A stretch of DNA of 64,000 bases from Thiorhodococcus drewsii AZ1. GTDB taxonomy: Bacteria > Pseudomonadota > Gammaproteobacteria > Chromatiales > Chromatiaceae. Location: contig NZ_AFWT01000027.1 of assembly GCF_000224065.1 (NCBI RefSeq), forward strand, positions 1 to 64,000. The letters run 5' to 3'. Of this stretch, positions 8,903 to 25,635 are shown in pieces. Numbering within the stretch: position 1 is the stretch's first letter; the number at the start of each line of letters is the position of its first letter. The notes under the pieces are model-generated. The model saw nothing but the letters and a program-made list of their open reading frames with translations. It was not told where the DNA came from and did no database searches. Both the position numbers and the translations under genes were made by a program.

Positions 8903-9334
8903 CTAGAGCTGAATCTGATGATGTCTCAGCGGATGTCCCTGGTCGCGGTAGTACCTGAATCGATCGCGACCGGCGGCGCGCAGGGTGGGGTCCAGATCGA
9001 CCAGATCGCAGACCCGATCGAAGCGCGTGAAGAATCCGGGCACCTCTCGGCCCAGGTTGAGCAGTACCTGGACCTCCGTCTCGGGACGTCCGTCCTCGGC
9101 GATCAGAATGGGGGTCAGTTCCTGATCGACCTTGCCGACCAGTCCATGCGGCAGGAAGCTGTCCTCACGATAGGTCCAGAGCAGTCGGTCGAGATGGCGT
9201 GCCTCATCGCGGTTCGGGCAGTGGATGAGCAGGCGCAGATCCTGGGCGCGGATGCGTTCCGCCAGACGGCAGGCGACCTGGAAACGGTCGCCTCGGCTCG
9301 TGGGTTTCAGGCTGTAGAAGTCGATTTGGGGCAT
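8903..9334 (-). CDS. holC: DNA polymerase III chi subunit
   Basis: 143 residues, the normal size for HolC, which bridges the clamp-loader complex to SSB through psi. The N-terminal MPQIDFYSL and the central AQDLRLLIHCPNRDEARHLD / LWTYREDSFLPHG segments are characteristic of the family (a Rossmann-like fold with the conserved 'LW...F.PH' stretch). It is convergent with the kinase gene. It is not next to pepA or valS, its usual neighbours; instead a repeat element lies just upstream of its start. Confidence 0.88.
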   Translation of the reverse strand: MPQIDFYSLKPTSRGDRFQVACRLAERIRAQDLRLLIHCPNRDEARHLDRLLWTYREDSFLPHGLVGKVDQELTPILIAEDGRPETEVQVLLNLGREVPGFFTRFDRVCDLVDLDPTLRAAGRDRFRYYRDQGHPLRHHQIQL

Positions 9335-9485: not shown

Positions 9486-10166
9486 TCATGTCACGCGCGC
9501 CAACATGCGCCGGTTGCGGGTTATGGTCGCCCATTCCTTCCCGACCACGAACCAGAGACAGAAGAAGCCCTCGCGCGCCAGTTGGACGAGGGTCGCTGCT
9601 CGATGGCTCAGTCGTGGCTCGGCCGGTTCCAGCCGATGGCGAAGTCCCAGGCTGGCGGCCATGAGCCCGAGCCGGGCCAGGTGGTAGCGGTTCGAGACGA
9701 TCAGGAATCGCGCCTGACGGTCGTTTTCCCGGTTGGCCAGCTCGCGCAAATTGCGCAGGTTGGTGAGCGTGTTGCGCGATTGACCTTCCAGAATCAATGA
9801 CAGGTCTGGATTTATCACGCTGAGTTCTAGATAGTCGGCCCCGGCCTGCGCCTCGCTGAGGGTAGCATTCGCCGTCCTGCCCCCAAGGATGGCCAGTCGT
9901 CCGGCGAACGGTGGGCGCGCGAGGGTTGCTGCACGATCGAGCCGTTGGCGGAAATCGGCGTCGGGTCGATTGCCGATCAGGCGCTTGCCCGGTACCACCA
10001 GCCAGCCGCTGTTTTCCGTACGTGAGGCGTGGACTGCTCGGGCGGTCCCGATCACGCGTTTCAGCCAGTAGAGATAGGCGAGTCCGAAGGTCGCAAGGAC
10101 GACGGCGACGGTCAGTGTGATGGTGAAGAGTCCGTCCCAGTCGAGCTGGCGCGGATTGGGCGTCAC
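9486..10166 (-). CDS. DUF218 / YdcF-SanA-ElyC-like membrane protein
   Basis: 226 residues. One N-terminal membrane segment (about residues 13-33, LFTITLTVAVVLATFGLAYLY) is followed by a soluble domain with GWLVVPGKRL, AILGGRTANAT, NTLTNLRNLRELA and FLIVSNRYHLARLGLMA. These match the DUF218 pattern in which 'vlG.....s' and 'vts.yH..Ra' segments form a Rossmann-like site. Family members (SanA, ElyC, YdcF) are linked to envelope and polyisoprenoid/peptidoglycan precursor integrity, but the reaction is unknown. It overlaps the upstream glycosyltransferase by ATGA (10163-10166), so it is the last gene of the aryl-polyene-type operon. Confidence 0.75.
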   Translation of the reverse strand: MTPNPRQLDWDGLFTITLTVAVVLATFGLAYLYWLKRVIGTARAVHASRTENSGWLVVPGKRLIGNRPDADFRQRLDRAATLARPPFAGRLAILGGRTANATLSEAQAGADYLELSVINPDLSLILEGQSRNTLTNLRNLRELANRENDRQARFLIVSNRYHLARLGLMAASLGLRHRLEPAEPRLSHRAATLVQLAREGFFCLWFVVGKEWATITRNRRMLARVT

Positions 10167-10954
10167 GGTGAACTGCCCTCGCGCTGCTCTTCAAGTGGCT
10201 GCAGGTCCTGGCGTAGCTGTGGCGGAGGCAGGCGCATGAGCGAACGCCAGAGACCGAGCGGGTAGAAGCTGCGGCGCGCCAGCTTGGCGGCAACCATGCG
10301 TACGATGCTCGACGTGTCCTTGAAGGCGCGGTAATGGCTGGGACGGGCGTTCGGATGGTAGAGGGTCGCGATAGGGATGGCGAAGGTGAAATAGCCTTGG
10401 CGAGCGGCGTCGATCAGGATCTCGCTCTCGAAGGCGAATCCGGCGTCCGGGCGTGGGTTGGTGGCGAGTCGGTCGACGAGCGGTCCCGGATAGAGCCGGA
10501 ATCCCGACTGGGTGTCGCGGATGGCCTGTCCGCAGGCCCAGGAGATCCAGAAGTCGGCGAATGCATTGGCGAAGCGGCGCAGCGGTGGTGCCTGCTCGCG
10601 ACTGTGCAGACGCGCCGCGATCAGGATGCGCTCCGGGTACTCCTGCGCTCGGGCGGTGAGGCGGGGGATGTCCTCGGGTCGATGCTGTCCGTCGGCGTCG
10701 ATGCTGATGATGTGGCTGGCACCAGCCGCCCGGGCGTGCCGCATTCCGCGCAGCAGGCTGGCGCCTTTGCCTTGATTGTCCGGGTTGTTCAGACGGATGA
10801 GCGGCAGGTCGGCGATGGCGGCGGCGGTGCCGTCGGTCGAACCGTCGTCGACCACGACCAGCCGTTCGATCGGTTGCTCCAGCACCCGCAGACAGATATC
10901 GCGGATGCTCGCGGCCTCGTTGAAGGCCGGTACCACCACCCAGATGCGGTTCAT
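10163..10954 (-). CDS. Family 2 glycosyltransferase of the aryl-polyene-like operon
   Basis: 263 residues of GT-A fold: VVVPAFNEAASI at the N-terminus, VVDDGSTDGT, a DXD-type SIDADGQH, then DTQSGFRLY and a C-terminal FKDTSSIVRM segment. This pattern (DPM1/GtrB-like or ApeJ/K-region GT2) suggests transfer of a sugar from a nucleotide sugar to a lipid or pigment acceptor at the inner membrane. No C-terminal transmembrane pair is evident. Start ATG (10954-10952) overlaps the ketoreductase stop by ATGA; the end overlaps the YdcF-like gene the same way. Confidence 0.85.
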   Translation of the reverse strand: MNRIWVVVPAFNEAASIRDICLRVLEQPIERLVVVDDGSTDGTAAAIADLPLIRLNNPDNQGKGASLLRGMRHARAAGASHIISIDADGQHRPEDIPRLTARAQEYPERILIAARLHSREQAPPLRRFANAFADFWISWACGQAIRDTQSGFRLYPGPLVDRLATNPRPDAGFAFESEILIDAARQGYFTFAIPIATLYHPNARPSHYRAFKDTSSIVRMVAAKLARRSFYPLGLWRSLMRLPPPQLRQDLQPLEEQREGSSP

Positions 10955-11670
10955 GTCATGGCTCCATCGAGACAGATGACCTGGCCCGATAGATAGCCCG
11001 AGTCGCCGCAGACCAGATAGGCGACCAGATCGGCAACCTCCTCGGGACGCCCCGCGCGGCGCATGGGGACCAGTCGCTCGATGGCGGCCCGGTCGAAGAG
11101 TGCTCGGGTCGATTCGCTGTCGATGATGCCGGGCGCGATGGCATTGACTGTGATCCCGCGCTTGGCCAGCTCGCGCGCGAGCGATTTGGTGGCACCGTGC
11201 AGACCGGCCTTGGCCGCGGCATAGTTGGTCTGTCCCTGGTTGCCGAGCACCCCGGAGATGGATGAGATGTTGACGATGCGTCCCCAGCGGGTGCCCATCA
11301 TGGGCAGCAGCAGCGGCTGGGTGACGTTGAAGAAGCCGCTCAACGAGACGTCGACGACGGACTTCCAATGTATGAAGTCCATTCCGGCCATAGGGGCGTC
11401 GCGATGGATGCCTGCATTGTTGACCAGGACCTGAATCGGGCCTTCGCTCAACAGGTCGTCCAACGCACGCTTGCTGTCCTCCGGGTCGGTGACGTCGAAG
11501 CTCACGGTGGATGCGTTCCCGCCAGCGGCTGCGATTTCCTCGACCAATGCCTCTGCACGCTCCATCCGGCGATGGGTGTGGACATGGACTCGGAGCCCCT
11601 CGGCGGCCAGTCGGCGCGCGATGCGGGACCCGATCTCGCCGGTTGCGCCCGTGACCAGTGCCCGTTTCAT
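10951..11670 (-). CDS. 3-ketoacyl-ACP reductase (FabG/ApeQ-like)
   Basis: 239 residues, classical SDR. The cofactor motif is TGATGEIG at the N-terminus, then NNAG, the catalytic Ser in NISSISG and YxxxK in NYAAAKAGL. The C-terminal GYLSGQVICLDGAM is the usual SDR end. In aryl-polyene synthesis the equivalent enzyme (ApeQ) reduces each 3-ketoacyl-ACP before dehydration. ATGA overlaps join it to both the dehydratase upstream and the glycosyltransferase downstream, giving strong evidence of translational coupling. It differs from housekeeping fabG in its operon context. Confidence 0.92.
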   Translation of the reverse strand: MKRALVTGATGEIGSRIARRLAAEGLRVHVHTHRRMERAEALVEEIAAAGGNASTVSFDVTDPEDSKRALDDLLSEGPIQVLVNNAGIHRDAPMAGMDFIHWKSVVDVSLSGFFNVTQPLLLPMMGTRWGRIVNISSISGVLGNQGQTNYAAAKAGLHGATKSLARELAKRGITVNAIAPGIIDSESTRALFDRAAIERLVPMRRAGRPEEVADLVAYLVCGDSGYLSGQVICLDGAMT

Positions 11671-12104
11671 TCTGTCTCCTGGCGTTGCGCCATGACGGTG
11701 AGGCGACCGCTGGACAGTCGCTGCTCGCCGTCCTGTATTTCGAAGCGATAGATAGCGTCCTGCTCCGATCCATGAAGCCGCGTCACCCGGATTTCCAGCG
11801 AGCCGTCCAGATCCGAGAGCGGATCGGACGGGAGCTCGACCTGGGATGCTGCGACCAATAGGGCTGGAGTCGGCGGGGCTCCCCGTGCGCGCGCTCGAAG
11901 CCCTCCGTGCAACGCGCAGGCCTGTCCGGCATATTCGATGACGTGGGCTACTGCAATGACCCCATCGGTTCGCAGCGGGTTGTCGGTTCCTCGGTGCGAG
12001 TGCGTTCGAGCGATCAGTCCATCGGCGTCCCAGGACAGCACCTCGTCGATGAGGCACATGTCGCCCGCGTGCGGGATGAGCGCGCGCAGCGCGTCGCTCA
12101 GCAT
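11667..12104 (-). CDS. Hotdog-fold 3-hydroxyacyl-ACP dehydratase (ApeP-like)
   Basis: 145 residues. The N-terminal LIPHAGDMCLIDEVLSWD matches the 'xxPHrgpMxLiD' start of the ApeP-type dehydratase family, and VAHVIEYAGQACALHGGL corresponds to the hot-dog helix with its conserved acidic residue. In E. coli, ApeP works alongside ApeI in dehydrating the growing polyene. The ATG at 12104 lies inside the end of the chain-length-factor gene (7-base overlap). Confidence 0.85.
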   Translation of the reverse strand: MLSDALRALIPHAGDMCLIDEVLSWDADGLIARTHSHRGTDNPLRTDGVIAVAHVIEYAGQACALHGGLRARARGAPPTPALLVAASQVELPSDPLSDLDGSLEIRVTRLHGSEQDAIYRFEIQDGEQRLSSGRLTVMAQRQETE

Positions 12105-12934
12105 GGAGCTTCACTCGGCATGGGTTGAAATCCAAGGTCGACAGACAGAACGGCACCGTCGAGATAGGGCAGCCGCACCTTGCCCGCGCGTTGCTGGGCG
12201 ATGGCCTGTAGCAGCGGCAGAACGCGTGCGGCCGGATTGCCCGCACGCATGGACTCCAACGCCGGGGACAGTGCATGCGTTTCGTCCTCTCCTTGCGGAT
12301 CGGGGGCCGTTATTGGATCGAGCGCCATGCGCGCCAGCGCGGTCTGGCTCCGGTCCCGTGCGAGCAGCAAGGCGCAGGCGAACGGTGTCTCGAAATGCCG
12401 ATGGATGTCGAGCGTCGGCGGTCCGGGAAGGTCGTAGGCCACCAGCAGGATCTCGTCGCACTCGGTCGCGAGCTGTGTGGCGCACTCCAGAAGCCCGGCG
12501 GACAGTGTGGCGTCGCCCGCTGCCAGGCTGGTCGATGGGGACATACAGCCGCTGCCGATCGACCAGTATCCGGCTGCGGCGTTGTGCACCGAGTTGTGGA
12601 AGAGGGTCGGCGAGAGCGCGACCGGTTGTTGTGCGATGCCCTCACAGAGCCGGTCGATCAGGCTCAGGTCGCCATCCGAGGAGGCGAAGACGCTGGGCAG
12701 ATGGGTGAGATCCGCCGCGATCGGCTCGATCGCCTGTCGCGCCGCCTCCATCGCCAGACGGGTCGGCGGCGTCGCGCGGCGGCGCTCGTTGGGCGGCAGC
12801 AGCAGGGGGGCGAGCGGCGGCAGTGGGGCCGGCTGGTACTGGATCTCGCCGCGCAGGATGGCCGCAGTCGTGGTCCAGTCGGTCAGGCCGGGTGCAATGA
12901 CACCGATCGATCGGATCAAGATCGGGGGGATCAT
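12098..12934 (-). CDS. Ketosynthase-like chain-length factor (ApeC-like)
   Basis: 278 residues, shorter than a full ketosynthase (~400). The central HNSVHNAAAGYWSIG and SLAAGDATLSAGLLE segments match the 'beta-ketoacyl synthase chain length factor' family (ketoacyl-synt_2). No Cys stands at the nucleophile position, as expected for a non-catalytic partner that dimerises with the ketosynthase and sets chain length. It overlaps the ketosynthase stop by ATGA (12931-12934), supporting a 1:1 complex made by coupled translation. Confidence 0.85.
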   Translation of the reverse strand: MIPPILIRSIGVIAPGLTDWTTTAAILRGEIQYQPAPLPPLAPLLLPPNERRRATPPTRLAMEAARQAIEPIAADLTHLPSVFASSDGDLSLIDRLCEGIAQQPVALSPTLFHNSVHNAAAGYWSIGSGCMSPSTSLAAGDATLSAGLLECATQLATECDEILLVAYDLPGPPTLDIHRHFETPFACALLLARDRSQTALARMALDPITAPDPQGEDETHALSPALESMRAGNPAARVLPLLQAIAQQRAGKVRLPYLDGAVLSVDLGFQPMPSEAPC

Positions 12935-14188: not shown

Positions 14189-16543
14189 TCAACCGCTCAG
14201 ACTCGGCCGTCGAGGGCGTGCCAACAGGAAGGTGGCCGGCAGCGCCAAGCCGATGCCGAGCGCGGTGGTGAGACCGATGGCGTGCAGCACCGGGATGCTG
14301 GACAGGGCGAGCAGTCCGAACATGAGCAGGCTCGAGAGTGCCGAGAGGGCGACGGCGAAGGCGGCCCGCGCGGATTCGGCCGGATCCGCGCATCGGCGGC
14401 TGAGAAAGAGGCTGTAATCGATGCTGAGTCCGAGCACCAACAGCAGAGAAACCAGATGGAAGAGGTTGATCGCGCCTTCGATGGCCAGCAGCAGGCCGTA
14501 GTCGAGGACGAGGGTCAGGGCGATGGGCAGGATCACCCTCAGTGTGCGTCCCTGACGGCGGACACCGAGCCAGATGAGTACGCCGATGAGCGCGGCGGCG
14601 AGCGTCAGACTGTTCAGCGTCTCCCGGATGAAACGGTCGATCAGTCCGGCGCTGGTCTCGCGCAGGTCGAGATAGCGCAATCCGCTGGCGGGATCGAGCG
14701 ACTGGAGCGCGGCGATGGCCGCCGGATGATCGGCTCCGATCAACGGGATGAGTCCCACCCATTCAGCGTCGAAGGGCTGGAGCAGCGTCTCAAGTCGTTC
14801 GCCGATGGGCGTTCCTTTCAGGTCATCCGGTGTCAGCGGCGTCTGGGCGTGCGCCAGATCCAGGTCGTCCAGAAAGGGCGCGAAGGCACCGGTGCGAAAT
14901 GGCAGCCCGGCGACGGCCTGATCGAGTCGCCGTTGCAGCTGGTCCCGGGTCGGTAGCTCGGATTGACGGGCGCGCTGGGTGGCTTGGCTGGGCAGGATCC
15001 GCGTGGGTGTGTCGAAGCCGGCGATGAGGCTGGCGTCGACCAGTCGATTCAGTTCGGTGCTCGATGACTCGATGCGTTGCAGCACCTGTTCGGGATTCGT
15101 GCCGACGACGAAGAGGATCTGCGCCACCTCGGGTGCGCCCAGCTCGGCGCGCAGACGTTGGTCCAGGGCGATCTCGGACCTGGGGACCGTGCTGAGACGC
15201 GAGAGATCGCTGCTCCAGGGATCTGGATGAAGCGCCAGCAGCGCGGTCAGGAGTCCGGTCAGGCCGAGCGCGATGAGACGGGCGGGGCAGCTGTCGAGGG
15301 TCGGTAGACGGTCGAGCAGGCCGGGCAGGGCACTGGGCGCCTTCCAACGGTAAGGCTCCGGGAGCAGGGCTGGCAGCAGAAACCTGGAGCAGGCAGCGGC
15401 GCTGGCCAGCCCGGCTCCGGCGAGCACCCCCAGCTGGGCCAGTCCCTCGAATTCGGCCAATGCCAGGGCCGCGTATCCGCAGACCGTGGTGACGACCGCG
15501 AGCAGCAGGCTCGGCCCGATCCCGCTCAGGCCTCCGATGTCCCCATCCCGGCGCTCGGTGTGCACGAAGATGTGCACCGGGTAGTCCATCGCCACACCCA
15601 TGAGGGTTACGCCGAGTGCCAGGGTGATGCCCTGGATGGAGCCGAAGGTCAGGACGACGGCGGTGGTGCCGATCAGGATGCCGGTCGCCAGCGGCAAGGC
15701 GCCGATCAGCACCAGTCGCGGCGAGCGGAAGGCGGCGAACAGCAGGGTCGCAACCACCAGTGACGCGGCGGCGCTGAGCCAGGTCGTCTGGGTCTGGATG
15801 GTCTCCTGCGATCCGATGGCGAAATAGCCCGGTCCGCTGATCGCCAGATGCAGCTGCGCGCTGTCGGCGAGCGCGGCGAATCCGGTTCGAACGGCTGTGA
15901 CGGCCTCGGCCTGGGCCGCCAGGTCCGATGCCTGGGCGCGCGTCTCGGCCAGCAGCAATGCCTCGCGACCGTCTTGTGAGACCCAGACGCCGTGCCGCTG
16001 GTGTGGTCTGGTGGGCGGTTTCAGTCCGAGCAGCAAGGCGCGCAAGCAGCCGGTCGGGTCTCGGGCGATGAGCGATGTGTCGATCGGCGGCATGGGACCG
16101 GCCAGCTCATCCAGGCGCCGTTCGAGCGCACGACGCAGACCTTCCGTGCCGAGATCCATCTGACAGGGTTCTCGCGGGCCGATCAGATAGCGGTGCGCGA
16201 GCGCCGGCGCCAGAGCGTCCGCCTCGAAGGTCTCCGAACCGTTGGCGACACGCCGAAAGCGCCCGCTGGCATCGAGCGCGGCGCTCAGTGCCCGGCTGGC
16301 GTCCGCCAGACGCTCCGGATCCAGATCGCCCTGGAGCGCGATCAGCAGGGTCCTGGCGGCGATCCCCTCGCGCAACTGGTTCAGCAACAGATGTTCCTGG
16401 AGGGTCGCCGTGCGCGGCAGGAACATGGAGAGGTCGCGATGCAGCGTCGTCTGGTTCAGGTTCCAGAGCATCAGAAGCAGCAGGCAGAGTAGCCAGACGG
16501 CGAGCAGAGGGCCGGTTCGCGGGAGGCGCATGCGGGGTGCCAT
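14189..16543 (-). CDS. MMPL/RND-family exporter of the aryl-polyene-like operon (ApeM/XanF type)
   Basis: 784 residues from the ATG at 16543, or 802 from a TTG at 16597; neither has a clear ribosome binding site. It has two RND-like halves, each with one TM helix, a large periplasmic loop and about five TM helices. Visible are LLAVWLLCLLLLMLWNL at the N-terminus, TWLSAAASLVVATLLFAAF and VAMDYPVHIFVHTERR in the first half, and VLDYGLLLAIEGAINLFHLV and LGLSIDYSLFLSRR in the second. The 'MDYPVH' and 'IDYSLF' Asp residues sit where proton-relay Asp occur in RND pumps. Homologues are proposed to move the lipid-linked polyene across the inner membrane, with the LolA-like protein encoded next to it. 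Confidence 0.9.
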   Translation of the reverse strand: MAPRMRLPRTGPLLAVWLLCLLLLMLWNLNQTTLHRDLSMFLPRTATLQEHLLLNQLREGIAARTLLIALQGDLDPERLADASRALSAALDASGRFRRVANGSETFEADALAPALAHRYLIGPREPCQMDLGTEGLRRALERRLDELAGPMPPIDTSLIARDPTGCLRALLLGLKPPTRPHQRHGVWVSQDGREALLLAETRAQASDLAAQAEAVTAVRTGFAALADSAQLHLAISGPGYFAIGSQETIQTQTTWLSAAASLVVATLLFAAFRSPRLVLIGALPLATGILIGTTAVVLTFGSIQGITLALGVTLMGVAMDYPVHIFVHTERRDGDIGGLSGIGPSLLLAVVTTVCGYAALALAEFEGLAQLGVLAGAGLASAAACSRFLLPALLPEPYRWKAPSALPGLLDRLPTLDSCPARLIALGLTGLLTALLALHPDPWSSDLSRLSTVPRSEIALDQRLRAELGAPEVAQILFVVGTNPEQVLQRIESSSTELNRLVDASLIAGFDTPTRILPSQATQRARQSELPTRDQLQRRLDQAVAGLPFRTGAFAPFLDDLDLAHAQTPLTPDDLKGTPIGERLETLLQPFDAEWVGLIPLIGADHPAAIAALQSLDPASGLRYLDLRETSAGLIDRFIRETLNSLTLAAALIGVLIWLGVRRQGRTLRVILPIALTLVLDYGLLLAIEGAINLFHLVSLLLVLGLSIDYSLFLSRRCADPAESARAAFAVALSALSSLLMFGLLALSSIPVLHAIGLTTALGIGLALPATFLLARPRRPSLSG

Positions 16544-16646
16544 CAAACCAGTCTCGAGGTCTTCGTCTCTTGCGAGAGCGCTTTGCAACCTGGGCAACGG
16601 ATTGAAGCGTTTGGTGTCCCTTGCCAGTCGATGGCCGTTGGGGCGT

Positions 16647-18222: not shown

Positions 18223-18503
18223 GGCGTGATGGTCAGACGTCCGGCACAGATGCTTCGGCCGCTCTGGAGACAGCGGAAATCCAGTGCGCGCCCGTCGCGC
18301 GCCGGGCCGAATTCGACCTCTGCCTCGCGTCCCGGGATCAGAGGATGCTGGAATTTGATGAAATCCAGATGGCTAGAGCCGGTTGGGCAAAGGGCGAGGA
18401 TGCGTTCGAGGATCACCGAGCCCGGAACCATGGGGGTCCCGGGGAAGTGTCCGGCCAGTGCCGGGTGATCTGCCGGGACGCTGAATCGGATCGCGCGTGT
18501 CAT
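18219..18503 (-). CDS. Small FabZ-like hotdog dehydratase (ApeI-like)
   Basis: 94 residues, a minimal hotdog fold. VPADHPALAGHFPGTPMVPGSVILER is the FabA/FabZ signature with catalytic His in GHFPG. ApeI in E. coli dehydrates 3-hydroxyacyl-ACP intermediates carrying aryl head groups. ATGA overlaps on both sides (18219-18222 and 18500-18503) couple it to the acyltransferase and the AMP ligase. It is distinct from the fabA gene at 23.2-23.8 kb. Confidence 0.87.
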   Translation of the reverse strand: MTRAIRFSVPADHPALAGHFPGTPMVPGSVILERILALCPTGSSHLDFIKFQHPLIPGREAEVEFGPARDGRALDFRCLQSGRSICAGRLTITP

Positions 18504-19846
18504 GTCTTCCGCCCCTCCTCGGATTTCAGGAGTGCGAGCAGCCATTGGTGGGGCGTCTTGCCGACCTCGTTGCGCGGCAAGGCATCGACGAAGAGGATGG
18601 GGCGCGGAATGAAGACCGGGTCGATCTGTTCGCGCAGCCGGGCGATGAGTTCGGCGCGATCGAGTCCGTGCGCGACCAGGATGGCGGCGAGACGGCTGGG
18701 CGATGGATCTCGGTCGTCCGGGACCAGGATCACGCCCTCGCGCACGCCTGGGATGGCGTTCAGCGTGCGGTTGAGATCGGCGAGCGAGGCGCGTTTGCCG
18801 CCGATATTGACCATGTCGCTGCCTCGGCCCAGGAGCCGGAAATGGGTCTCGTCGATCAGCTCCAGTCGGTCGTTGAGCGGGATGCTGCCGGGCAGGAAGT
18901 CGGCCTCGACCTGGGTCCGCTCGGCGTCCAGCTGGGTGGCCCGGACACCGTCGTACCACTGCCAGATCGGACCGGCGACGGTGCGGCGGCTGGCGATGGA
19001 CCCGGCTTCGGTACAGCCGTAGATCTCGTTGACCTGGGTCGAGAACGTCGACTCGACCGATCGCGCCAGGTCGGTGTCGAGCGGGGCGGTGGCCGAGATG
19101 ACGCGGTCGATCTCGGGCCATTTCAGCCCAGCCTTGAGGCAGGCGCGCAGATGGACGGGCGTGGTCACCAGGATGCGCGGACGGCGGGTTTCGGCGAGGG
19201 CGCGACGAACGTCCTCGGGGAAGAAGGGACGGCCGGCATGGGCGGAGGCGCCGGTCGCCAGCGGGATGAAGACCGAGAGTTCCAGGCCGTACATATGCTG
19301 CGGCGGTACGGTGGCGACGATGTTGGTCTCGGGTCCGATGCCGAAGCGTTCGGCTGCGCGCAGCGAGCAACGCATCTGGTCGCTCCAGCGCTTGGCGTGC
19401 GGCTGGGGCGTGCCGGTGCTGCCGGAGGTGAAGGCGATGATGGCGTCCGCTCGATCGGACAGATCGGGGACGCGAGCCGGTTTCAGATCCGCGGGGTCCG
19501 GTTCATGGATGTTGTGATGTGGCAGGCTCGGGTCCGTGGCCTCGCCGTCCGAGAGCGTCACGCAGCCCGGATAACGCTCGGCGATTCCACGCACGGTGGC
19601 GTCGAGCCGGTTGGGCGGCAAGAGTGTGGGGATGTCGCGCACCAGGGCCGCGCACAGCGACAGCATGAAGCGATAGCGATCCTCGCAGAGATTGATGAGG
19701 TGCGTCGCCGGCGGTAGTCGCTCTGCGATCAGTGCGACCTGGGAGAGGAATGTCTCGCGCGAAATGGTTCTGCCCTCTCGCCAGGCGATCGGTCCTCCCC
19801 GCCGGTGGGCGGGCATAAGCGCATTCACGCGAGGATCCCCCATCAA
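18500..19846 (-). CDS. AMP-dependent acyl-ACP ligase (ApeH-like)
   Basis: 448 residues of the adenylate-forming superfamily. The P-loop is FTSGSTGTPQPHAKRW, the A5 region is NEIYGCTEAGSI, the A7/A8 region is LLGRGSDMVNIGGKRAS, and the terminal LPRNEVGKTP holds the catalytic Lys. In aryl-polyene systems the enzyme activates the hydroxybenzoate or hydroxycinnamate head group and loads it on ACP. Here the chorismatase in the same operon should supply that acid. It overlaps the ACP stop by ATGA (19843-19846). Confidence 0.88.
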   Translation of the reverse strand: MMGDPRVNALMPAHRRGGPIAWREGRTISRETFLSQVALIAERLPPATHLINLCEDRYRFMLSLCAALVRDIPTLLPPNRLDATVRGIAERYPGCVTLSDGEATDPSLPHHNIHEPDPADLKPARVPDLSDRADAIIAFTSGSTGTPQPHAKRWSDQMRCSLRAAERFGIGPETNIVATVPPQHMYGLELSVFIPLATGASAHAGRPFFPEDVRRALAETRRPRILVTTPVHLRACLKAGLKWPEIDRVISATAPLDTDLARSVESTFSTQVNEIYGCTEAGSIASRRTVAGPIWQWYDGVRATQLDAERTQVEADFLPGSIPLNDRLELIDETHFRLLGRGSDMVNIGGKRASLADLNRTLNAIPGVREGVILVPDDRDPSPSRLAAILVAHGLDRAELIARLREQIDPVFIPRPILFVDALPRNEVGKTPHQWLLALLKSEEGRKT

Positions 19847-20112
19847 TGCGTGCGGTTGGCCGCGATGTGGGCGCAGAGATCGCGTAGCGAGGCGAAGATG
19901 GAGCGGACGTTCGGGTCCTGGGAGCTGATGGTCACGCCGTATGTTTGGGTGACGGCCAGCGAGAGCTCCAGGGCATCGATCGAGTCCAGCCCCAGGCCGT
20001 CGCCGAACAAGGGGGCGGTGGGGGAGATCTCCGAGACCTGCATGCCATCGAGATGCAGGGTCTCGATGATCAGTTGAGCGACTTCTTGTTCGAGTGGTGC
20101 AAGCGTTTCCAA
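19843..20112 (-). CDS. Acyl carrier protein of the aryl-polyene-like operon
   Basis: 89 residues. The phosphopantetheine attachment site is S44 in LGLDSIDALEL. Acidic, helical and of normal ACP length. E. coli-type aryl-polyene clusters carry two ACPs (ApeE and ApeF); only this one is present here, so either it does both jobs or the housekeeping AcpP helps. It lies 28 bases downstream of the methyltransferase. Confidence 0.92.
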   Translation of the reverse strand: METLAPLEQEVAQLIIETLHLDGMQVSEISPTAPLFGDGLGLDSIDALELSLAVTQTYGVTISSQDPNVRSIFASLRDLCAHIAANRTH

Positions 20113-21023: not shown

Positions 21024-22085
21024 TCAGTTCGCTGCGACGCATGGCTCAAGCACGCCCTCGATCTCGATCGCGAGATCGCGCCGACAGATCGCGCCGCGCA
21101 GATACTGGATCGCGGTCGCCGGCCCGCACCAGTGGCGCAGGGTCGGCTCGATCCAGTCGATCTCGTGTGGGGCGCGGACATAGACGCGGAGCAGATCCGG
21201 GCGACGTCCTCCGGGTGCTCCGGTCGCCTCGATCAGCGTCTCCAGATTGCGCAGCGTCTCGGTCAGTTGCGCCTCGGGCTGATCCGGGTGGTTCGAGGCG
21301 TGTCCCACGACGCTCGCCGTGCCCGAGAGGAAGAGCCTGTCCGACAGGCCGCCGGCGCCCCGCATGGCGCGCGCAAAGTAGGGTGGTCGGATGCCGTACT
21401 CTGGTGGATAGCGATAGGCCGGGACCTGGCGAGGATTCTCGACCGCCGTCCCCGGCGAGCGTGCGAACAGCCCGTAGACCAGGAGCCCCCCGCAATGGGT
21501 GCCGATGGCGCTGGCGGCCGGGATGCGCTCGATTCCGAATCCGGCGCGGTCGAAGGCGTTGGCCCGACCGGTGCTGAACGCCCGGTAGCCGTCCTGTCCG
21601 TCGGCCGGGTCGTGGATCGCCTCGACGAGGTTCCAGAGGCGCAGCGGATGCGGATAGCCGCGCCGAGCCGTCAGGTCGAGCATCTCCGTATAGAGTGCCT
21701 CGGTCGTTGCGGCGAGTGCGTTGCGGTCGGTGTCCTCGATCAGTCGATGGGCCAGCATCAGGTCCTCGCCTTCCACAAAGCCCATGCCGCCCTCCCAGCC
21801 GAGATCCTCGATTCGCTCGACGCCCCAGTGCTCGAGCGGTTGGCTCGGCCCTAGTGGAGCGAGACCGACGGTCAGCGCGCGCGGATCCTCCGAGCGCAGA
21901 TGTCGGTGGCCGAAGCGAATCTGGGCGAAGGTGCGTGCGTCGAGTGGAGTGGGCTCGACACTGTCCGCGATCCGATATGACAGTATCATCTGGTGCGGTG
22001 TCGCGGCCTTGGGGCGGGAGCTGTCGTTGGCATGATCGCGGTCTGTTCTGAGTGAGTTCGACAGGTTCCTTGGGCCGTCCGTCAT
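21024..22085 (-). CDS. Chorismatase, FkbO/Hyg5/XanB2-like
   Basis: 353 residues from the ATG at 22085, or 321 from the ATG at 21989 (MILSYRIADS); neither start has a clear ribosome binding site and the first 32 residues look unstructured. The body resembles the chorismatase (YjgF-like double domain) family: RFGHRHLRS, RLWNLVEAI, GYRAFSTGRANAF, PAASAIGTHCGGLLVYGLF, FLSGTASVVGHAS and LRVYVRAPHEIDWIE, ending in a LAIEIEGV strand. Family members cut pyruvate from chorismate to give dihydroxycyclohexadiene-, 3-hydroxy- or 4-hydroxybenzoate. XanB2 does this for xanthomonadin in Xanthomonas. As first gene of the operon it most likely makes the polyene head group. Which acid it makes cannot be read from sequence here. 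Confidence 0.82.
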   Translation of the reverse strand: MTDGPRNLSNSLRTDRDHANDSSRPKAATPHQMILSYRIADSVEPTPLDARTFAQIRFGHRHLRSEDPRALTVGLAPLGPSQPLEHWGVERIEDLGWEGGMGFVEGEDLMLAHRLIEDTDRNALAATTEALYTEMLDLTARRGYPHPLRLWNLVEAIHDPADGQDGYRAFSTGRANAFDRAGFGIERIPAASAIGTHCGGLLVYGLFARSPGTAVENPRQVPAYRYPPEYGIRPPYFARAMRGAGGLSDRLFLSGTASVVGHASNHPDQPEAQLTETLRNLETLIEATGAPGGRRPDLLRVYVRAPHEIDWIEPTLRHWCGPATAIQYLRGAICRRDLAIEIEGVLEPCVAAN

Positions 22086-22194
22086 TGCGCCAGGCCGCCT
22101 GACGGGGACGGCGGGAGTCTACGCATAGCGCTGATTCGCATCAAGGTAATCGGCGGTTGGGTTTTTGAATGCGGCTGTTGTCCGGGGGGATGGA

Positions 22195-23100
22195 ATGCGC
22201 GTGTTGGTCGAGGTCGTTCGTAAGGCGAGGCGGACCGTTCGGGTCTCCTGGCATGGCTCTGGGAGGACGGTTGAAAGCGGGCTTTTGGTCCTGGTGCTGC
22301 TCGGTGCGGGTGCCGTCCAGGCCGCGCGCGAACCGCTGTGGGAGGTCGCGCTCGGTGGCGGCGCACTCACCTTGCCCGACTATCGCGGCGCGGGCCAGTC
22401 CAATGGCTACGTCTATCCATTCGTCCTGCCCTATTATCGCGGCGATGTGTTCAAGTCGGACGAGAACGGCATCCGTGGGCTCTTCTTCGAGTCCGAGCGC
22501 ATCAAGCTGGATGTGAGTTTGGACGGGACCGTCCCGGCATCGAGCAGCGACGATCCGGCGCGTCGCGGTATGGACGATCTGGATCCGACCTTTCAGATCG
22601 GCCCTATGTTTCGCTATCTGTTATGGGATCGCGAGGATCGGAATCGTTCGTTGAGTCTCAACCTGCCGGTTCGCGCGGCCTTCGCCGTGGGGAGCGGGCT
22701 CCAGCACATCGGTTATACCTTCTATCCCCATCTCACCTATCGACAGGATCTGGACCTGCTTGGAGAGCGCTGGCGGGTGCGTCTGTCGGGCGGTCCCATG
22801 CTTGGGACCGAGAGCCATCACGACTATTTCTACCGCGTCTCCAGTCGGGACGCGACGCCCGGGCGCGCGGCCTACGATCCTGACGGCGGTTATGGGGGCG
22901 TGCGGATGATCGGGACCCTCTACCACCGTCACAAGGATTTTCTGGTCAATGTCTATGCCATGTACGACTCGGTCGATGGGGCCGTCTTCGACGACAGCCC
23001 GCTGGTCCGGCGCGACAGTGGTGTGACCTTCGGTTTCCTGGTGAGCTGGTTTCTGTTCAGGTCGGACCGGACGGTCGAGACGGGTGGTCTGGATTGGTGA
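22195..23100 (+). CDS. MipA/OmpV-family outer membrane protein
   Basis: 301 residues, divergent from the pigment operon. The N-terminus has a basic segment, a hydrophobic stretch (GLLVLVLLGAGAVQAA) and an AxA cleavage site. The mature start WEVALGGGALTLPDYRG and the ending SWFLF are typical of MipA/OmpV barrels, with alternating aromatic beta strands throughout. Homologues are MltA-interacting scaffolds or porin-like proteins; the substrate is unknown. The ATG at 22195 follows a G-rich GGGGGG stretch that can serve as ribosome binding site. Confidence 0.85.
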   Translation: MRVLVEVVRKARRTVRVSWHGSGRTVESGLLVLVLLGAGAVQAAREPLWEVALGGGALTLPDYRGAGQSNGYVYPFVLPYYRGDVFKSDENGIRGLFFESERIKLDVSLDGTVPASSSDDPARRGMDDLDPTFQIGPMFRYLLWDREDRNRSLSLNLPVRAAFAVGSGLQHIGYTFYPHLTYRQDLDLLGERWRVRLSGGPMLGTESHHDYFYRVSSRDATPGRAAYDPDGGYGGVRMIGTLYHRHKDFLVNVYAMYDSVDGAVFDDSPLVRRDSGVTFGFLVSWFLFRSDRTVETGGLDW

Positions 23101-23237: not shown

Positions 23238-23753
23238 TCAGAAGCCGTCGGTGGAGGTGAAGAGTCCGACGCGCAGGTCCTTGGTGGTGTAGATGGTACG
23301 TCCGTCGACCTGGACGACACCGTCGCCGATGCCGAGTACCAGCTTGCGGCTGATGACCCGCTTTATGTCGACGTGGTAGGTGACCTTCTTGGCGGTCGGA
23401 AGCACCTGGCCGGTGAATTTGACCTCGCCGACGCCGAGCGCGCGTCCATGTCCGGGGTTGCCGATCCAGCCTAGATAGAAGCCGACCATCTGCCAGAGCG
23501 CGTCGAGACCCAGGCAGCCGGGCATCACGGGGTCGCCGGGGAAGTGGCACTCGAAGAACCAGAGGTCGGGGCGGACGTCGAGTTCGGCGATGATTTCGCC
23601 CTTGCCGTTGGCGCCGCCGAAGTTCGCGATGCGCGCGATGCGGTCCATCATCAGCATGTTCGGGGTTGGCAATTGGGCATTGCCTGGGCCGAACATCTCG
23701 CCGTGGCCACAGGCCAGGAGTTGATCGCGGTCGAATGAGGCTTCTTTGTTCAT
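23238..23753 (-). CDS. fabA: 3-hydroxydecanoyl-ACP dehydratase/isomerase
   Basis: 171 residues, identical in length class to E. coli FabA (172). Catalytic His is in [13 protein letters not shown] and the conserved Asp in [11 protein letters not shown]. It introduces the cis double bond in unsaturated fatty acid synthesis. fabB, its usual neighbour, is absent here. It ends facing the MipA gene. Confidence 0.96.
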
Positions 23754-23898: not shown

Positions 23899-25635
23899 TC
23901 AGGCGGCGGTGTTGTACGCGGCCTTCAGGCGTTCCTTGAGGAAATCGACGATCTCGGCGATGGGGATGAGCTGCATTTCGGCATCGGTGCGGCCTTTATA
24001 TTCGATGACGCCATCGTCCAGCCCTTTGTCGCCGACAACGACCCGGTGCGGGATGCCGATGAGTTCCATATCCGCGAACATGAAGCCCGGGCGCGCATCG
24101 CGGTCGTCGAGAAGGACCTCGATGCCGGCCGCCTGGAGATCGGCGTAGAGTTGCTCGGTCGCCTCGCGCACCCGATAGGATTTGCCGAGCTTCATCGGCA
24201 GCAGCGCAACCTCGAAGGGGGCGATCGGGGCGGGCCAGCAGATACCGCGCTCGTCGTGATGCTGTTCGATGGCGGCGGCGACGACGCGCGAGACGCCGAT
24301 GCCGTAGCAGCCCATGGTCAGTGTGGTGGCCTTGCCGTCCTCGCCCAGTACCGTGGCATTCAGTGCCTCGCTGTATGTGCGACCGAGTTGGAAGATGTGT
24401 CCCACCTCGATGCCGCGCGCGATGGTCAGGGTTCCCTTGCCGTCGGGGCTGGGGTCGCCTTCGACGACGTTGCGCAGATCGGCGATCTCTGGCAATGGCA
24501 GATCGCGTCCCCAATTGAGGCCGAACCAGTGCTTGCCGTCCTGGTTGGCTCCGGCGCTGAAGTCGGCGGTGACGGCGACAGTGCGATCGGCGATGCAGGG
24601 AATGGTCAGATCCTTGGGTCCGAGCGAGCCTGGTCCGGCTCCGATCGCGGCACGGATCTCCTCTTCGGTGGCCATGCGCAGGGGCGAGGCGACCTGGGGC
24701 AGCTTTTCGGCCTTGATCGGGTTGAGTTCGTGGTCGCCTCGCACCAGTAGGGCGATCAGATCGGCGTCGATAGCCTCCGAGGCTGCGACCACCAGCGTCT
24801 TGACCGTGTGCTCGATCGGCTGTTGGAATTGCTCGACCAGATCGGCGATGGTTCGGGCCTTGGGTGTATCGACCAGGCGAGCCTCTTCGTTTGCTGCGGG
24901 CAAGGCGTTCGCGAGGGCCACGGCCTCGGCCAGCTCGACGTTGGCGGCATAATCGCTCTCGGTCGAGAAGGCGATGGCATCTTCGCCCGAGGTTGCGAGT
25001 ACGTGGAATTCGTGCGAGGCGTTGCCGCCGATGCTGCCCGTGTCCGCCTGCACCGGGCGGAAATCGAGTCCGCAACGGCTGAAGATGCGACAGTAGGTCT
25101 CGTGCATCTTGCGGTAGGTTTCGGACAGGGATGCCTCATCCAGATGGAAGGAATAGGCGTCCTTCATGAGGAACTCGCGTGCGCGCATGACGCCAAAGCG
25201 CGGGCGGATCTCGTCGCGGAATTTGGTCTGGATCTGATAGAAGTTAACCGGGAGTTGCTTATAACTTCTCAGTTCGTTACGCGCCAAGTCGGTAATGATC
25301 TCTTCGTGCGTCGGGCCGAAACAGAATTCGCGTTGGTGGCGGTCGCGCAGACGCAGCAGTTCCGGTCCATATTTCTCCCAGCGCCCGGATTCTTGCCATA
25401 ATTCAGCTGGTTGGACCGCAGGCATGGCGACCTCGAGCCCGCCCGCCCGGTCCATCTCTTCGCGCACGATGCGCTCGACCTTGCGCAGGACACGCAGGCC
25501 CAGAGGTAGCCAGGTGTAGAGCCCGGCTGCTAGCTTGCGGATCATGCCCGCGCGCAGCATAAGCCGGTGGCTGGCGATTTCGGCGTCCGCAGGGGTTTCT
25601 TTGATGGTCTGTAGAGGAAACTGAGAGGTGCGCAT
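23899..25635 (-). CDS. proS: Prolyl-tRNA synthetase, bacterial type
   Basis: 578 residues. Class II motifs: motif 1 around [20 protein letters not shown], motif 2 in [26 protein letters not shown], motif 3 in [17 protein letters not shown]. Between motifs 2 and 3 is a ~170-residue insertion that matches the YbaK-like editing domain which removes Ala-tRNAPro ([22 protein letters not shown]). The ATG at 25635 ([13 protein letters not shown]) matches the usual family start; the open frame upstream to 25695 is not conserved-looking. Confidence 0.96.

Follow-up and report, generated by a model that had tools for sequence, protein, structure and literature searches.

The 64,000-nucleotide window of Thiorhodococcus drewsii AZ1 analysed here carries an open reading frame that the initial annotation took for a chorismatase, the type of which (FkbO-, Hyg5- or XanB2-like) would dictate the acid loaded by an AMP ligase and with it the head group of the product. 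The question raised by this locus is therefore which acid the enzyme makes, and the importance given to product type holds up. As set out below, the open reading frame probably encodes a XanB2-like (type III) chorismatase that starts an aryl polyene with 3-hydroxybenzoate (3-HBA) and probably also yields some 4-hydroxybenzoate (4-HBA).

Family, fold and translation start

The open reading frame list confirms the frame at positions 21024-22085 of the reverse strand (353 aa counted from the first ATG). The predicted protein matches the Pfam family FkbO_Hyg5-like_N with 92.4 bits (cut-off 27), but its 186.6 bits against NCBIfam TIGR04444, a strict subfamily model for FkbO and Hyg5 proper, fall under the strict cut-off of 325, which places it, as judged from the profiles, outside that subfamily and inside the wider chorismatase fold family. 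Its sole sequence relatives in the PDB are Hyg5 (E 1.6e-41) and FkbO (E 3.5e-35), with an identity to either of only 34 percent. The AlphaFold model, built from 43 sequences, has a mean pLDDT of 90.6, and its residues 1-315 match the Hyg5/FkbO structures 5ag3, 5a3k and 4bps (Z 40.5-41.4, rmsd 2.2-2.3); in the best match, to 5ag3_B, 312 residues are aligned (Z 41.4, rmsd 2.2), and the two-domain fold is found over the full length. Structures of the RidA/YjgF family match the model mainly in its C-terminal half (Z about 16), and the protein has the N-terminal domain that single-domain RidA/YjgF proteins do not have. Judged by profiles and modelled fold, the frame encodes a true chorismatase and no mere RidA domain.

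Two in-frame ATG codons, at 22085 and 21989, are 96 bases apart, as first noted from the letters. In the nearest relative, the chorismatase of Imhoffiella purpurea AK35 (68 percent identity), a stop codon lies one codon ahead of the Met equivalent to the ATG at 21989, and for this reason the second ATG is the preferred start, giving a predicted protein of 321 aa. The first ATG was rejected on account of this stop together with frame-breaking indels: when the upstream DNA is aligned with that of I. purpurea, the gaps add up to 13 bases, which is no multiple of three. In the fold comparison, the 321-aa form already contains the whole fold.

An aryl-polyene cluster headed by the chorismatase

The chorismatase heads an aryl-polyene cluster, the other genes of which lie downstream on the same strand (Table 1). 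A ligase, an acyl carrier protein (ACP), a ketosynthase pair, a ketoreductase, LolA, an exporter and an acyltransferase are all present, and because this gene set matches the tables in PMC8253772 and PMC3949708, the cluster is called aryl-polyene. Both the cluster with its AMP ligase and the UbiE-like methyltransferase placed next in the operon had been proposed in the initial annotation and are found here. No promoter or terminator was found in the scan upstream of the chorismatase. A FabA-type dehydratase gene (23238-23753) is located upstream of the cluster, and the gene for DNA polymerase III chi (holC, 8903-9334) just past its far end. In 6 of 80 loci, a homologue of the divergent MipA/OmpV-type neighbour lies close to the chorismatase gene; arcC of Azoarcus is likewise MipA-type.

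Table 1. Features predicted in and beside the aryl-polyene cluster of T. drewsii AZ1 (window positions)
Position	Strand	Feature	Basis
10163..10960	-	Family 2 glycosyltransferase	82.8 bits
10951..11673	-	FabG-type ketoreductase	Profile matches
11667..12104	-	Probable hotdog dehydratase, without Pfam match	Position and conservation in chorismatase loci; function inferred
12098..12931	-	N-terminal-type ketosynthase (chain-length-factor-like)	PF13723, 115 bits
12931..14169	-	Beta-ketoacyl-ACP synthase	NF006618, 484 bits (cut-off 407)
14189..16597	-	MMPL/RND exporter	MMPL, 46 bits
16647..17408	-	LolA-like carrier	LolA_3, 41.9 bits
17329..18222	-	Lipid A-type acyltransferase	Lip_A_acyltrans, 43 bits
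18222..18497	-	Short hotdog-like ORF	Weak FabA match, 20.9 bits (under cut-off 23)
18500..19846	-	AMP-dependent acyl-ACP ligase, XanA2/ArcT-like, predicted hydroxybenzoate loader	Profile matches, co-occurrence, tree
19843..20112	-	Acyl carrier protein	PP-binding, 39 bits
20141..20983	-	SAM-dependent methyltransferase, UbiE-like fold, below UbiE cut-offs, start provisional	Pfam, 104.3 bits
21024..21989	-	Predicted chorismatase, 321 aa, XanB2-like	Profile matches, model fold, residues; preferred ATG 21989
21990..22085	-	In-frame extension upstream, from first ATG	Judged non-coding: I. purpurea stop and indels
22165..23100	+	MipA/OmpV-type outer-membrane protein, divergent neighbour, start provisional	122 bits

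Of eight core pigment genes, at least five were found near the chorismatase in 42 of 80 relatives, at least three in 50 and none in 18, counts that are limited to the available flank DNA, several of the loci being short contigs. In two Thioalkalivibrio loci (L095 and L098) the chorismatase is paired with a methyltransferase of the cluster type, and the available flank showed no further pigment genes. Our literature searches found no paper on aryl polyenes in purple sulfur bacteria, and no mention of Chromatiaceae appeared among the listed matches for aryl polyene and xanthomonadin.

Phylogenetic position

In the chorismatase tree, the T. drewsii protein forms a pair with that of I. purpurea (support 100/100) inside a nine-row Chromatiaceae group with Thiocapsa-like genomes (97/88). 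Hyg5 and FkbO form another pair (100/99), and the Xanthomonadaceae homologues, with which the T. drewsii protein shares 36-41 percent identity (23 rows), another group, although the deep branches do not split the named groups cleanly. The chorismatases of Chromatiaceae do not all stay together in the tree but are spread over several places, a pattern that suggests gain or transfer on more than one occasion. The tree omits the duplicate genomes L043 and L109, the truncated sequences L018 and L019, and L020 and L024, which duplicate the genomes of L038 and the T. drewsii window. The protein adds a member to an enzyme family already known, whose biochemically tested proteins lie outside its clade.

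Active-site residues

The catalytic Glu of Hyg5 is E334, and the residues of type II are given as Gly, Gly and Cys at positions 164, 231 and 318 of Nat-hyg5 (PMC7170507), the first of which we map to Hyg5 position 173 by a constant offset of 9. In the T. drewsii protein, the equivalent of E334 is E309, so that the catalytic Glu is present, and G223, C302 and A161 correspond to Hyg5 G240, C327 and G173, respectively. FkbO has Gly, Ala and Ala at Hyg5 positions 173, 240 and 327, and Ala-Val in the region of Hyg5 197-201 where the T. drewsii protein has R187-Q188. The Ala pair of type I at positions 240 and 327 is thus replaced by Gly and Cys, and the Gly-Gly-Cys triad of type II by Ala-Gly-Cys, the type III (XanB2) pattern of proteobacterial pigment-cluster homologues, a pattern drawn from the relatives collected here and not from a published definition.

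Position 173 is occupied by Ala in 74 of the 80 named relatives, proteobacterial and other (Cys in 3, Val in 2, Gly in 1), and by Gly in Hyg5 and FkbO, so that A161 is in line with the XanB2-like group of proteobacteria. All 80 have Cys at 327 and Glu at 334, whereas Gly at 240 and Arg-Gln were partly selected among the relatives, the peptide patterns of the scan including both. The single Gly at 173 is that of a chorismatase encoded in a gammaproteobacterial pigment locus (L086:9748-10734), which groups with Hyg5 and FkbO (94/87); this fits the idea that position 173 marks the type. As far as residues allow, R187, Q188, G223 and C302 rule out the FkbO type. The active-site comparison suggested at the outset thus yields a XanB2-like pattern in place of an FkbO-like one, and the product may be 3-HBA alone or a mixture of 3- and 4-HBA. 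Alignment alone is stated to be no accurate predictor of the reaction (PMC3949708).

The ligase and the acid loaded

Of 274 genomes of the class, 38 have both the ligase (presence threshold E at most 1e-40) and the chorismatase, 11 have only the chorismatase, 9 only the ligase and 216 neither. The ligase is found in 38/49 chorismatase genomes versus 9/225 others, uncorrected for relatedness. We tried a ligase tree as a discriminator between 3-HBA and 4-HBA. It comprised 59 rows, from 29 class genomes with loci and from the 80 named loci, with five further ligase-only genomes, which have no locus, left out. The attempt failed: four ligases from genomes that do not encode a chorismatase, including that of the UbiC-containing single-contig genome G319, were scattered and formed no group of their own. 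Given this scatter, and given that ArcT in vitro also activated benzoic acids with changes at the 4-position (PMC3949708), the ligase alone is no proof of 3-HBA.

ArcB, a XanB2-type enzyme, makes both 3- and 4-HBA, and analogues of 3-HBA enter the pigment, although assays with purified enzyme also give spontaneous 4-HBA (PMC3949708). In Lysobacter, a strain with the homologue deleted loses about 90 percent of its pigment, which returns when 3-HBA is supplied (PMC3691225). Aryl-polyene clusters of E. coli that start from 4-HBA draw it from UbiC (PMC8253772), and since such clusters do so, the presence of a dedicated chorismatase argues for 3-HBA.

Sources of 4-hydroxybenzoate for quinone synthesis

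UbiC has no match in the T. drewsii genome, which is estimated to be 100 percent complete, and UbiA is present. A Rv2949c-like chorismate lyase is encoded on contig C104 (24506-24937 within a gene of about 24362-24943, + strand; L125:4363-4941; 41.5 bits, cut-off 22) and, in an alignment of nine sequences, retains the Arg and Glu columns common to UbiC; it could supply the 4-HBA for ubiquinone. In the order, UbiC is present in 110 of 195 genomes and a Rv2949c-like gene of its own in 83, one genome having both and three neither. For these numbers, 23 Rv2949c-like matches that coincide with the UbiC gene were set aside, and one genome (G194; 20.8 bits, under cut-off, same place) was counted as Rv2949c-like and not as UbiC. 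The two lyases are thus almost mutually exclusive across the order.

UbiC is absent from 20/24 chorismatase genomes of the order versus 65/171 others (Fisher p 3.5e-5, uncorrected for relatedness). We considered whether this absence makes the chorismatase the supplier for ubiquinone and set the idea aside, given that the Rv2949c-like gene is found in 20/20 UbiC-less genomes with a chorismatase and in 62/65 without one, from which we infer that the supply of 4-HBA in these genomes is independent of the chorismatase and that it is the Rv2949c-like lyase that feeds ubiquinone synthesis.

In the class as a whole (274 genomes; own and UbiC-overlapping matches separated by eye from the listed places), 34 of the 49 chorismatase genomes have neither UbiC nor a Rv2949c-like lyase, and in another 54 genomes all three are missing. 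Elsewhere in the class, the chorismatase may be the only source of 4-HBA, as is XanB2, the ubiquinone 4-HBA supplier of Xanthomonas (PMC5069965, PMC4682078).

The methyltransferase of the cluster stays under the cut-offs of both NCBIfam UbiE models (152.5 versus 216 bits and 145.7 versus 158.35 bits), and a true UbiE (401 bits, cut-off 378) is encoded on contig C139, where it adjoins a SCP2/UbiJ-like ORF. Fifteen of the 80 chorismatase loci include a homologue of the cluster methyltransferase, and each homologue scores about twice as many bits against that enzyme as against UbiE. By these scores the cluster enzyme is not UbiE and is read as a predicted pigment-decorating enzyme, for which C- and O-methylation are both possible. 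The suggested cross-talk between the chorismatase and quinone synthesis is therefore possible but not needed, being weakened by the methyltransferase scores, by the separate UbiE and by the Rv2949c-like lyase.

Comparison with known systems and alternative readings

The cluster resembles those of Xanthomonas and Lysobacter, in which the chorismatase (XanB2 or its homologue) has the same fold family, most Xanthomonadaceae-group homologues share the residues Ala-Gly-Cys-Glu, and the same kind of pigment cluster includes a ligase, ACP, acyltransferase, LolA and exporter. The T. drewsii enzyme differs in its identity of about 38 percent and separate clade, and the UbiC-family lyase encoded elsewhere probably makes a ubiquinone role unnecessary. 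In Azoarcus sp. BH72, ArcB likewise leads to an aryl polyene via an AMP ligase, and the clusters include a methyltransferase and a MipA-type protein (PMC3949708); arcuflavin differs in being joined to a dialkylresorcinol. In contrast to the arcuflavin system, none of the scanned window proteins was noted as matching a halogenase. The ape cluster of E. coli shares the ligase, ACP, ketosynthase pair, LolA, RND exporter and methyltransferase, but it starts from UbiC-made 4-HBA and its gene table includes no chorismatase (PMC8253772). The Streptomyces enzymes share the fold and the catalytic Glu; Hyg5 (type II) also has the Gly and Cys positions and the RQ motif but Gly for A161 and a macrolide instead of a pigment context, whereas FkbO (type I) differs at the four active-region positions (A, V, A, A).

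The alternative that deserves most weight, though we consider it the lesser prospect, is a Hyg5-like outcome, with 3-HBA as the only product and 4-HBA left wholly to the Rv2949c-like lyase. It would agree with the identity of G223 and C302 to Hyg5 and with the lyase in all UbiC-less chorismatase genomes of the order, which would leave no need for 4-HBA; A161 and the formation of both acids by tested XanB2-type relatives (PMC3949708) speak against it. An enzyme making mainly 4-HBA (type IV-like, or a type III biased to 4-HBA), with a 4-hydroxyphenyl head group as in E. coli, is unlikely: the many class genomes with a chorismatase and neither lyase suggest that 4-HBA might be an old duty of the family, and related ligases exist in genomes that do not encode a chorismatase, but a dedicated source of 4-HBA would be redundant beside the T. 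drewsii lyase, and the tested cluster relatives use 3-HBA (PMC3949708, PMC3691225).

Still less probable is that the chorismatase supplies the cell's ubiquinone with 4-HBA and that the neighbouring methyltransferase acts in quinone synthesis. The missing UbiC and the role of XanB2 in Xanthomonas would be in line with this, but the UbiE on C139, the methyltransferase scores and the distribution of the Rv2949c-like lyase, which occurs in UbiC-less genomes with or without a chorismatase, are against it. For an FkbO-type enzyme making a dihydroxycyclohexadiene carboxylate, the shared fold is outweighed by the four residue differences, and we give it hardly any credence. A RidA/YjgF protein devoid of chorismatase function, the outcome by which the first reading was to be refuted, can be dismissed almost entirely, since the RidA fold of the C-terminal half is common to all chorismatases and the full-length fold, the N-terminal Pfam domain and the catalytic residues are those of a chorismatase.

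In the preferred reading, the XanB2-like chorismatase would split chorismate into pyruvate and hydroxybenzoate, with 3-HBA as the useful product and probably some 4-HBA, as in XanB2 and ArcB. The neighbouring AMP ligase would load the acid, presumably this hydroxybenzoate, onto the cluster ACP, and the type II polyketide machinery (ketosynthase pair, ketoreductase and dehydratase) would extend it into an aryl polyene. The methyltransferase would decorate the molecule, probably at the aromatic head. Attaching the pigment and placing it in the outer membrane would be the task of the acyltransferase, the LolA-like carrier and the RND exporter. The product would be a yellow pigment of the aryl-polyene type, made by a purple sulfur bacterium.

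Implications

Our results cut the head-group question to a short list, separate pigment supply from quinone supply and add a purple sulfur bacterium to the hosts of aryl-polyene pathways that begin with a chorismatase. We tentatively propose, as a scenario that is less likely than not, that in Chromatiaceae a Rv2949c-like lyase replaced UbiC as the source of 4-HBA for ubiquinone, and that the chorismatase, thus freed from the two tasks that XanB2 combines in Xanthomonas, specialised in 3-HBA with its XanB2-like residues kept. Our literature searches found no paper joining Rv2949c with chorismate and ubiquinone, and none joining UbiC with Rv2949c or DUF98. If the scenario is true, a 3-HBA-specialised chorismatase with XanB2-like residues would be a natural test of product choice in this fold. 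The near exclusivity of UbiC and the Rv2949c-like lyase also provides a candidate for the absent 4-HBA step in UbiC-less proteobacteria, a gap stated for Hyphomicrobium (PMC12423496), and this may outweigh the main result.
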